This document shows positions 9,837-14,661 of a stretch of DNA of 64,000 nt, one piece after another. A program made the position numbers and the translations under genes. Position 1 is the first letter of the stretch; each line of letters opens with the position of its first letter. The notes under the pieces were generated by a model. It was given only the letters and a program-made list of their open reading frames with translations, made no database searches and was not told the origin of the DNA. This DNA comes from Candidatus Synechococcus calcipolaris G9 (GTDB taxonomy: Bacteria; Cyanobacteriota; Cyanobacteriia; Thermosynechococcales; Thermosynechococcaceae), in assembly GCF_029582805.1 (NCBI RefSeq), contig NZ_JAKKUT010000002.1, positions 644,001 through 708,000 of the forward strand, written 5' to 3'.

Positions 9837-10274
9837 GTGGAACTATCCTCTAAAAGCGAGTATGCTCTTTTGGCCCTCCTGGAAATGTCTGAGGCCTATC
9901 GCAAAGAAGAGCCGATGCAAATCCGTCAAATTGCTGCTATGCACAATATTCCCGATCGCTACCTAGAGCAATTATTGGCAACTCTGCGGCGGCAAGGGTT
10001 AATTCGCAGTCAGCGGGGGGCAAGGGGGGGCTATCTTTTGGCCAAAGCTCCTTGGCATGTCACCCTCTTGGATGTCCTAGATTGTATTGAGGGGGTGGAT
10101 ACGACCCCTACCCATCCTGCAACCCACAGTGAAGACCTAGAGCGCAGTGTAATTCGAGCGGCCTGGCAAGAAGCCTGTCAAGCAGCTAATACGGTCTTAG
10201 AAAACTATACGCTTCAGGATCTGTGCGATCGCCGCCGCAGCAAAAAACAACTCGATATTATGTATTACATTTAA
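9837..10274 (+). CDS. Rrf2-family transcriptional regulator (CymR-like)
   Basis: 145 residues from GTG 9837, with CAGGA a few bases upstream and a TATACT box at 9800-9805. The winged HTH is complete: [18 protein letters not shown], then [33 protein letters not shown] split over the recognition helix, then [10 protein letters not shown] wing. The three clustered cysteines that hold the Fe-S cluster in IscR are absent (the Cys residues are dispersed in [15 protein letters not shown] and DLCDR), which argues for a cluster-free CymR-like regulator. The gene sits 23 bp upstream of cysK. In Bacillus, CymR acts in a complex with CysK, so control of sulfur metabolism is a reasonable inference. Confidence 0.88.
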
Positions 10275-11343: not shown

Positions 11344-12153
11344 ATGCATCCCATCAAAAGCCCTCTTCGTTATCCCGGCGGCAAATCAAAAGCTCTCGGA
11401 AAAATTCTGCCCCAGTTTCCAGCGGTGATTCAAGAATATCGGGAACCCTTTCTTGGTGGCGGCTCTGTTTTTTTAGCGGCGCGGCAACTCCCAGGCTATC
11501 AAATCAAACATTACTGGATCAATGATCTGAATCTTGATCTCCATTGCTTTTGGTTAGTTGCCCAAAGAGAGATTAATTCCCTGGTCGAAACAGTAACAAA
11601 CATCTGGCAAACCCGCAGGGATGGTAGAGAGTTATTTCGTTCTTTAACGACTGAAAACCTAGACTTAACGGAATTTGATCGGGCCGTTCGCTTTTTCATC
11701 CTCAATCGGATCACCTTCTCTGGAACCGTTGATTCCGGCGGCTATTCCCAGCAGGCCTTTGAGCGGCGATTTACCCTATCCTCTATCCACCGCCTCCATA
11801 AATTAGCCGATCAACTCTCAGCAACCTGCATAACAAATCAAGATTATGAGACCCTTTTATTTGAGCCTGGGGAGCAGGTCTTTATCTTTTTAGATCCGCC
11901 TTACCTGAGTGCCACCAAATCTAAACTCTATGGCCGCAAAGGGGATCTACATACGAGCTTTGATCATGAAAAATTTGCTAAAAATATGTATCAATGCCCC
12001 CACAAATGGCTGATCACCTACGATGATTCCCCAGAAATAAGAGATCTCTTTCACTTCGCCACCATCAGCGAATGGACCCTTCAGTACGGCATGAACAACT
12101 ATAAACAGGACGGCGCAGCAGCAGGTCGAGAGCTATTCATTAAAAACTATTAA
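11344..12153 (+). CDS. D12-class (Dam-type) DNA adenine-N6 methyltransferase
   Basis: 269 residues, full length for the family. KSPLRYPGGKSKALGKIL is the N-terminal substrate/SAM segment, YREPFLGGGSVFLA is motif I (FxGxG) and FIFLDPPYLSATKSKLY contains the catalytic DPPY. LNRITFSGTVDSGGYSQ and WLITYDDSPEIRDLF are further D12 motifs. No restriction endonuclease is adjacent, so it is a solitary methylase. The target cannot be read from sequence; GATC is plausible because Dam-like enzymes are of this class and GATC is the core of HIP1. A 38-codon minus-strand frame overlaps its 3' end (12150-12265) without a start codon. Confidence 0.88.
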   Translation: MHPIKSPLRYPGGKSKALGKILPQFPAVIQEYREPFLGGGSVFLAARQLPGYQIKHYWINDLNLDLHCFWLVAQREINSLVETVTNIWQTRRDGRELFRSLTTENLDLTEFDRAVRFFILNRITFSGTVDSGGYSQQAFERRFTLSSIHRLHKLADQLSATCITNQDYETLLFEPGEQVFIFLDPPYLSATKSKLYGRKGDLHTSFDHEKFAKNMYQCPHKWLITYDDSPEIRDLFHFATISEWTLQYGMNNYKQDGAAAGRELFIKNY

Positions 12154-12281: not shown

Positions 12282-13283
12282 CTAGCGACGCTTTTTACCA
12301 GAAAAACGATCCATAAACGTTGATACCCGTCCCAATAATGACTTGGATTCCGCTGCGGTAACTTGTTCGATCACTGGCGGATCTCCCGTCATGCCCACCG
12401 GTTCAAAGACCTTAATGTCCTGGTCCCCCACGGTAATATTGCCCTTGCGCCCTAAAATCACCTGGGACTGTACCTGGGCATAGACCGACTCAGACATTAA
12501 AATACTGGTTTTAGCCCGTACATTACTCGCTTCAATCTGCTGGGATAAACTGACCGCAGAGCCGACGGGAATAATTAAATCCAGCCGCTGGGGATCCGCC
12601 GCCACCAGTACCACCTCAGCAAAATGTAAACCAATAGTTAAATTCAAGGGTTGATAGGATAATTGTCCCAGAAAATGATTAAGTTCTTCTTGGGATTTCA
12701 GCATTTCCAGGCCTGCCCACACCGCCTGCGCCGCTGAATTACTTTCGTGATTGATTCCAAACGTGGCAATAGCCAGATGATCCATATAGTTATTGATCAC
12801 CCCACCATACTGATGAACAATTTTGTGTAAACACTGAAAATAGCGGCTCATAGTGTAGAACGTATCATAGGGAAAATTAATTTCATCAAAATTAGTCGCC
12901 CCTCGGATCTTTGCCACTAATAGGGTAACGGCCTTTTTATTCCCTGTTGTGCCGCTGGAAAACTGATGATCCACAATATCAATATCTTGATCATCATTCA
13001 CTAATCGCCGTACCTTGACATCCCCTTGCAGCACCTTGGTTTGGCAAGCGAGGCGCACATGAAAGGGAAAATCTAGCTTTTTAGCTAGGGCAATTTCACT
13101 TTGGGTGGCATCGGTACAGTTTTCAATTCCTTCGAGCAGCATGACCCGGCACGTTGAACAGTAGGCCTGGCCACCACACACATTGGTAATGGGAATATCC
13201 CCATTGAGTAAGCCATCGAGAATGGTCTGCCCTGATTCAAGATCAACAGATTTATTGTCAGGATAACAAACAACCTGAGGCAT
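12282..13283 (-). CDS. 2Fe-2S ferredoxin fused to a degenerate class III nucleotidyl cyclase domain
   Basis: 333 residues. Residues 1-95 are a 2Fe-2S domain with ligands Cys36, Cys42, Cys45 and Cys80 (NVCGGQAYCSTC and LACQT), the C-x5-C-x2-C spacing of adrenodoxin-type ferredoxins. From residue 117 a class III adenylate/guanylate cyclase fold follows (KAVTLLVAKIRGATNF, HKIVHQYGGVINNYMDHLAI). The first metal Asp of FADIRG is Lys125, and the transition-state Asn and Arg (normally VNLAARL) are replaced in AVSLSQQIEA; only the second Asp, 168, remains. The domain is therefore probably not a standard cyclase. A redox-controlled binding or scaffold role is an inference. The divergent neighbour at 13421 shares the promoter gap. 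Confidence 0.85.
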   Translation of the reverse strand: MPQVVCYPDNKSVDLESGQTILDGLLNGDIPITNVCGGQAYCSTCRVMLLEGIENCTDATQSEIALAKKLDFPFHVRLACQTKVLQGDVKVRRLVNDDQDIDIVDHQFSSGTTGNKKAVTLLVAKIRGATNFDEINFPYDTFYTMSRYFQCLHKIVHQYGGVINNYMDHLAIATFGINHESNSAAQAVWAGLEMLKSQEELNHFLGQLSYQPLNLTIGLHFAEVVLVAADPQRLDLIIPVGSAVSLSQQIEASNVRAKTSILMSESVYAQVQSQVILGRKGNITVGDQDIKVFEPVGMTGDPPVIEQVTAAESKSLLGRVSTFMDRFSGKKRR

Positions 13284-13420: not shown

Positions 13421-13669
13421 TTGTCTCCCCCCGATCCCTCCTATCTAAGTCGTTTACGTAGGGAAGCTCAGGCTCCTTTCCGTGGACTACGCCAGGTGTT
13501 TTATCTTGTTTTTGCGGCATCGGGCCTTATGGGAGGTTTTATTCTTTTCCTCAAGGCGATCGCTGGCCACGGAGGAGAGGATATTGGCTGGAGTCTAGCC
13601 CTACAGATCGGTGTCGTGGTAGTCATGCTCAGTCTATGGCGATGGGAACAGCAACGTTCCCCAAAATAG
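13421..13669 (+). CDS. Small DUF3493-like membrane protein
   Basis: 82 residues from a TTG start at 13421 (SPPDPSYLSRLRREAQAPFR). A basic N-terminal segment of ~25 residues is followed by two hydrophobic helices (VFYLVFAASGLMGGFILFL and LALQIGVVVVMLSLW), ending WRWEQQRSPK. This layout matches small cyanobacterial and chloroplast proteins of the DUF3493/LPA1-type family linked to photosystem II assembly. The identification rests on layout and the N-terminal motif, so it is tentative. It diverges from the ferredoxin-cyclase gene; 13670-13836 downstream holds nothing I can support. Confidence 0.6.
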   Translation: MSPPDPSYLSRLRREAQAPFRGLRQVFYLVFAASGLMGGFILFLKAIAGHGGEDIGWSLALQIGVVVVMLSLWRWEQQRSPK

Positions 13670-13836: not shown

Positions 13837-14661
13837 TTAGAGTGCCCTCAGCCAAGTCTCTAGATCGTGGAGGTTTTGAAAATCTAACAGATCTTCTCCC
13901 AAGGATTCCAATTGCTCCAGGGATAGAGCATTGATTTGGGTTACAAATGCATCAGGGGTGGGCCCCACTCGGCGAGTGAGTAATCGCAGGATGAGCGTAC
14001 AGGCTTCCTCCCGTTGCCCCTCCTGCCGTCCTTCTTGTCGTCCTTCTTGGAGAATGTCTTGATAAATGACCGATTCGCGCATCATTCCCTCCCGAAAAAT
14101 ACTTTTAATAAGCTCCTTACTGTACTGTAACCCAGCCAATAGTTGAACGACGTTACTCAAGTCCTGCCGCGATTGGACTGATTCAATTTCACCAATTTTA
14201 TCGGCGACGGACTGCAATAGGGCTGCTTCATTTTCTGTTTTACCCAAGACCGCAAAAGGAAGCAGGGGCGGAATCCTAAAAAATTGATTGGGGTCTTCTT
14301 CCCAGAGTTTAATCACTCGATAGCGATGAATAGTGCTTGGCAACTCAAAGACATTGGGCACATGAACCTTTGTTCGCCGTAGCAAAATCAAGACTTGGAC
14401 AATCTTGCAGTGATGGGTGCGATAGAGTCTCAGCCAATAGTCCAGCATTCGTAAGGGCAATGTCGGCTCTGGCTCGACTTGAAATTCTAAATGGAGAATA
14501 CAGTTCTGGGTCTGCACCAATGTTACGGAATCGGCGCGGATGGGTTCGAGGTTCAGTTCTGTTTTCAGGATTGATACATTTTCTGAGGAATCCTTGAGGA
14601 GCCACTGGGTAAAGGCGGTGGGATATTTTTCCGCTAGGTATTTACAGAGGTTGTCGCGCAT
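13837..14661 (-). CDS. Rpn/DUF4351 family PD-(D/E)XK nuclease-like protein
   Basis: 274 residues. The N-terminal half has the Rpn-family nuclease core (IRADSVTLVQ ... CILHLEFQVEPE, giving the Asp and the Glu-x-Gln of the active site). A charged repeat segment follows (LQEGRQEGRQEGQREEA), then a C-terminal DUF4351 domain (LILRLLTRRVG ... INALSLEQLESLGEDLLDF). These proteins are numerous in cyanobacteria and related to recombination-promoting nucleases; the biological role is unclear. The gene lies 21 bp downstream of lpxC on the same strand and may be transcribed with it. Confidence 0.85.
   Translation of the reverse strand: MRDNLCKYLAEKYPTAFTQWLLKDSSENVSILKTELNLEPIRADSVTLVQTQNCILHLEFQVEPEPTLPLRMLDYWLRLYRTHHCKIVQVLILLRRTKVHVPNVFELPSTIHRYRVIKLWEEDPNQFFRIPPLLPFAVLGKTENEAALLQSVADKIGEIESVQSRQDLSNVVQLLAGLQYSKELIKSIFREGMMRESVIYQDILQEGRQEGRQEGQREEACTLILRLLTRRVGPTPDAFVTQINALSLEQLESLGEDLLDFQNLHDLETWLRAL

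Follow-up and report, generated by a model that had tools for sequence, protein, structure and literature searches.

A widespread cyanobacterial clade of predicted ferredoxin-linked pseudocyclases

Comparison with described cyclases

The literature already contains cyclases that are linked to a ferredoxin and carry a predicted heme anchor. The passages of PMC4821796 that deal with them describe class IIIb adenylate cyclases of Proteobacteria, such as Q132R4 of Rhodopseudomonas palustris, which carry in front a cytochrome b-like anchor of six transmembrane segments predicted to bind heme. In these enzymes, as far as those passages describe them, the ferredoxin lies directly before the class III domain, an arrangement shared by the protein studied here, which is encoded in a stretch of 64,000 nucleotides from Candidatus Synechococcus calcipolaris G9 (hereafter, the window); however, the latter has neither the anchor nor the metal-binding Asp residues. 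Cyanobacteria also contain intact fusions of a [2Fe-2S] domain (Fer2) with a class III domain (25 in our set, e.g. L049, L026 and L036), which show the same domain order, cluster cysteines and C-terminal tail and a similar length, but differ in keeping the catalytic Asp/Asp/Asn/Arg in 25/25 cases, and which are presumably redox-controlled active cyclases.

Degenerate class III domains, having the cyclase fold without the full catalytic set, are represented by mammalian C2 and mycobacterial Rv0891c. Neither of them has a ferredoxin, and C2 keeps the Asn and Arg and works with C1, whereas the window copy keeps neither residue. A search of the open-licence PMC literature, conducted mostly at title and abstract level, returned no description of a cyanobacterial pseudocyclase clade. 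The sequences analysed here define such a clade, in which the redox domain appears to be untouched, the chemistry was most likely dropped once and new residues have become fixed. Sensing would here have become separated from catalysis in nature, and the clade would make it possible to test whether the cyclase fold can work as a module for binding or regulation under redox control.

The gene and its two domains

The ferredoxin-pseudocyclase gene occupies positions 12282-13283 of the minus strand, where an open frame of 333 amino acids with an ATG start spans the whole interval. The original prediction had placed a gene here, and this part stands; it had omitted the strand, and the plus strand across the same interval is full of stops. 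The gene stands alone in the window. Its neighbour at 11344-12153 (plus) converges with it, and an ORF of 82 aa with a TTG start and a DUF3493 domain (Low psii accumulation1 / Rep27), at 13421-13669 (plus), diverges from it across 137 bp. Scanning the locus for promoters and terminators gave results at chance level, and Rfam produced 0 matches between positions 12000 and 14000 of the window. Further out, at 9837-10274 (plus), lies an Rrf2-family regulator that overlaps at its end with the beginning of an ORF that looks by eye like a cysteine synthase, and at 13837-14661 (minus) a DUF4351 protein, relatives of which are found near the family locus of genome G112 and of Synechocystis salina (cluster 14).

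Residues 10-84 (13032-13256, minus) form a [2Fe-2S] Fer2 domain, recognized by Pfam above its cut-off (E 1.2e-10). The cluster cysteines Cys36, Cys42, Cys45 and Cys80, spaced C-x5-C-x2-C-x34-C, place it among the [2Fe-2S] ferredoxins of the adrenodoxin/ISC-like Fer2 type. The original prediction had pointed to this complete site, and in the family alignment all four cysteines are conserved in 29/29 degenerate and 25/25 intact members; Cys56 of the same domain is likewise invariant. No heme-type anchor of six transmembrane segments precedes Fer2, which starts at the N-terminus of the 333-aa protein.

The class III cyclase-fold domain follows at residues 116-285 (12429-12938, minus) and was delimited from Pfam, the alignment and a structure match. 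The Pfam model Guanylate_cyc scored 21.7 bits on these residues, just below its cut-off of 21.9. The structure was modelled from the window protein together with 12 of the 14 loci that a family profile search had named, giving a mean pLDDT of 72.8, with low confidence at the cluster loop (residues 33-45) and the tail. Residues 112-303 of the model aligned over 188 residues with the guanylyl cyclase Cya2 of Synechocystis (2w01) with a Z of 25.1 and an rmsd of 2.2, and Foldseek matched it to the class III cyclase fold with an E of 2.3e-13. Given the alignment to Cya2, which was the best structural match, the cyclase fold is secure, and its predicted position after Fer2 was borne out. Cya2 differs, however, in being an active enzyme with its metal Asps and in having no ferredoxin in the matched chain.

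The four catalytic residues of an active class III enzyme are all gone from this domain. In the first metal-Asp column, which holds Asp in 25/25 intact and 0/29 degenerate members, the window protein has Lys125 (codon at 12909-12911, minus), and the alignment puts Ser245 and Gln249 in place of the transition-state Asn and Arg; these three substitutions had been read correctly from the single sequence. The statement that only Asp168 remains must be corrected. Between Gly160-Gly161 and Phe175-Gly176 the family members align without gaps, and Asp168 falls in a column occupied by Gly in 28/29 degenerate and 25/25 intact members; the second metal-Asp column holds the adjacent His169 (12777-12779, minus). 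Therefore, all four catalytic positions are lost (K125, H169, S245, Q249), and neither the two metal Asps nor the Asn/Arg pair of an active class III cyclase is found. The observation from the single sequence was thus partly confirmed. Lys125 and His169 are private to the window copy among the 29 degenerate members, and this gene is, judging from the alignment, among the few of the clade to have lost all four residues; its loss of Asn and Arg may reflect further decay.

The protein ends in a basic amphipathic tail (residues 316-333; 12285-12338, minus). The mean best moment of the tail was 0.51 in the degenerate and 0.62 in the intact group, compared with 0.38 (sd 0.14) for 40-mers from elsewhere in these proteins, a difference that is suggestive only of an amphipathic tail in possible, weakly indicated contact with the membrane.

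Distribution and origin of the family

From a larger group, 388 cyanobacterial genomes belonging to this class were sampled evenly and searched, with no more than five candidates scored in each. This yielded 54 full-length ferredoxin-cyclase fusions in 52 genomes, the window copy included, and one further match of 85 residues; a clear gap separated the fusions (E < 1e-50) from the cyclase-only matches (E > 1e-15). The 54 were extracted in six frames and then aligned, leaving out an 88-aa stump from S. salina, and fell into two groups: 25 keep Asp/Asp/Asn/Arg and 29, among them the window copy, have neither Asp. The degenerate members are spread over 8 families and 15 genera, and include Pseudanabaena species, a Leptolyngbyaceae MAG, Oscillatoriales M59_W2019_021 and Cyanobacteria bacterium RI_101. 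The pseudocyclase clade is real and widespread, and the window gene, with its redox half intact, is a full member: it has the Fer2 fusion, lacks the metal Asps, falls within the one clade and carries D133, F137 and Y210.

Outside the class, 0/38 genomes from other classes of the phylum contained the fusion, and none was found in the viral contigs searched. A contig search with the single window protein gave 0 loci, and its repetition with the family alignment named 14. One degenerate member outside the 54, judged by eye to be without both Asps, comes from a MAG labelled Chloroflexaceae (SM1_2_4), which likely reflects a misbinned contig.

The fusion itself is wider than cyanobacteria. A tblastn search of plasmids returned 166 records, mostly from Rhizobium, 12 of which covered at least 80% of the query in one place. 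Five plasmid fusions (Rhizobium, Phyllobacterium and Tistrella) keep both Asps and the Arg in 5/5 cases and the Asn in 4/5, and a long N-terminal anchor is absent from two of them, L152 and L153. L152, on Rhizobium gallicum plasmid pRgalR602c (1501-2337), is a triple fusion of Fer2, an intact Asp/Asp/Asn/Arg cyclase and a C-terminal Rieske [2Fe-2S] domain. L154 and L156, on Rhizobium and Phyllobacterium plasmids, are ferredoxin-cyclases whose long N-terminal part is hydrophobic, and their genes are flanked by those for a glycosyltransferase and an FkbM methyltransferase. As for the intact cyanobacterial group (25 loci, L026 to L058), the base-selecting column holds Asn, Val or Ile in 25/25 and the standard Lys or Glu of adenylyl and guanylyl cyclases in 0/25, which makes the substrate of these proteins uncertain.

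In an unrooted tree the degenerate and intact groups were split by a branch with support of 100/98. When the tree, which has some long branches, was rooted on the five plasmid fusions, the 29 degenerate members formed one clade (100/99) inside the intact cyanobacterial proteins, with L026, of family group f24, as the closest intact relative (98/85). The degenerate clade was recovered from the Fer2 domain alone, an alignment of only 101 columns (91/87, in 92% of bootstrap trees), and from the cyclase domain after removal of the active-site columns (100/99), a tree in which the outgroup did not fall on one side of a branch. As far as these two control trees can tell, the possibility that separate losses were grouped artefactually by the damaged cyclase half can be rejected. 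Since the clade is nested within intact relatives and held in both controls, a single loss of the metal residues, without later regain, is most likely, in a family that either spread or was widely inherited. The original prediction had considered that intact orthologues would imply a local loss in this strain; intact proteins do exist, as a separate group, and with the loss shared by a clade of 29 genomes a local event is rejected.

Constraint and possible function

The possibility that only the ferredoxin is useful and that the cyclase half is a vestige in the process of being lost bears directly on how the two halves are conserved. After ten near-copies were dropped from the 29, columns invariant in the intact group were scored in the remaining 19: at least 75% of these members kept 29/33 of the Fer2 columns, versus 15/38 core and 7/24 other columns of the cyclase domain. 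Fer2 is therefore conserved far better than its partner half, and the Pfam cyclase score declines from 85.3 bits in intact L049 to 51.5 in L007 and to the sub-cut-off value of the window copy. In addition, S. salina LEGE 00031 has only the 88-aa Fer2 stump mentioned above (L104:10002-10268), about 60% identical to the start of the window gene, which ends soon after Cys80 and has no cyclase half downstream, implying that this half, or the whole gene, is dispensable there. However, because it lacks the final strand of the fold, the stump is more probably a gene in decay than a functional ferredoxin, and full-length frames are found in 29/30 degenerate-type loci, this stump being the exception. 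The cyclase half also shows low dN/dS and invariant residues of its own, described below, and we regard a mere vestige as rather improbable. An identity of the stump with Synechocystis Fed6 (ssl2559) was considered and dropped, as its gene neighbours do not match those in the relevant part of PMC4284462.

The pocket and the rest of the cyclase domain show different patterns of change. Across the 29 members the first metal position holds seven residues (T, S, G, R, A, K and N) and the second twelve (V, N, L, F, T, H and others), a variety that indicates loss of constraint at the pocket. On the other hand, nine residues have become newly fixed in the degenerate group (seven in the thinned set), and three of them, D133, F137 and Y210, are present in 29/29 degenerate and 0/25 intact members. 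D133 and F137, within residues 133-137 (DEINF; 12873-12887, minus), lie just past the old phosphate-binding turn in the sequence, and Y210 further on. Among eight Pseudanabaena genes, and thus within one genus, the pairs with finite dS gave a dN/dS of 0.04-0.14 for the cyclase domain and 0-0.08 for Fer2. The newly fixed residues and the low dN/dS together indicate that selection still maintains the cyclase half, in a role other than catalysis, and the early notion of a conserved fold without conserved chemistry finds good support in a loss common to 29 members. Some class III cyclases with altered residues do keep activity, and the cyclase fold is intact in the predicted model, which would be compatible with a nucleotide cyclase, or other nucleotide enzyme, whose active site is unusual. 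The replacement of both metal Asps by many residues, with Lys125 and His169 occurring in the window copy alone, speaks of drift instead of a redesigned metal site and renders such an activity very improbable; annotating these proteins as cyclases would be wrong.

The mammalian C1/C2 pair divides the labour, C2 lending Asn and Arg to a partner that has the Asps. Our protein could similarly act through another active class III cyclase, by pairing with it and placing it under redox control, which we consider unlikely in general, and the evidence for it differs among members. The C2 pattern, with Asn and Arg kept in the absence of Asps, occurs in 12/29 members, eight of them from Pseudanabaena, for which a C2-like role is possible on the basis of these residues; it is excluded for the window copy, whose Ser and Gln complete neither composite site. 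With no catalytic residue to lend, the window copy could only inhibit or modulate a cyclase, as a non-productive subunit. Potential partners are available: the window genome encodes three other cyclases with intact motifs (HAMP-, CHASE2- and FHA-type, labelled by eye), and in a looser search of eight genomes, G004, G029, G068 and G091 each had a single other cyclase above the Pfam cut-off, of the FHA type. An FHA-type cyclase was present in 28/29 degenerate genomes versus 254/388 overall (Fisher p 6e-5, uncorrected for ancestry). Nevertheless, this association is confounded by ancestry, as the FHA cyclase is widely found in the class, most genomes of the intact group included, and G014 has a degenerate member without it; such a cyclase is thus an available but not a dedicated partner. 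An intact ferredoxin-cyclase paralogue co-occurred in 2/29 genomes (G192 and G318), with 1.9 expected by chance, and no cyclase gene adjoins. Neither the window genome, the looser search of eight genomes nor the co-occurrence across 29 genomes revealed a dedicated partner, and the originally proposed heterodimer, in which another cyclase supplies the missing residues, was weakened accordingly. The specific version in which the state of the ferredoxin would set whether the dead half forms a non-productive heterodimer with the FHA-type or another class III cyclase, lowering messenger synthesis, seems to us of low probability. If the clade did control an active cyclase, electron flow would be tied to cAMP or cGMP.

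The reading that we find fairly probable is that of an old pseudocyclase family of soluble redox proteins in which the cyclase fold has been reused as a dimerisation or binding module. The sequences support the intact cluster site, the cyclase fold, the absence of all four catalytic residues, a single loss of the metal residues and selective maintenance; we infer the mechanism that extends beyond clade membership and the intact redox half, namely a loaded cluster, dimer formation, redox gating and a partner. The intact [2Fe-2S] domain would take or give an electron and so sense or carry redox state, and the C-terminal cyclase domain, presumably no longer making cAMP or cGMP, would serve dimerisation, a trait of class III cyclases, and the binding of a partner or ligand. 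The redox state of the cluster may then alter what the pseudocyclase half binds, and the redox-gated binding domain of the original prediction fits this proposal, leaving its interpretation as a whole partly supported. Alternatively, the pseudocyclase half may bring the ferredoxin to its redox partner, possibly at a membrane contacted by the C-terminal tail.

Different genera had no neighbour genes in common, and a conserved operon was therefore rejected. Within Pseudanabaena, the gene directly follows a 276-aa uncharacterised gene at 6/8 loci and directly precedes a GMC oxidoreductase at 5/8 (gap 21-30), and an SDR and a glyoxalase-like gene lie nearby at several of them. In this one genus, the neighbourhood hints at redox metabolism over signalling.
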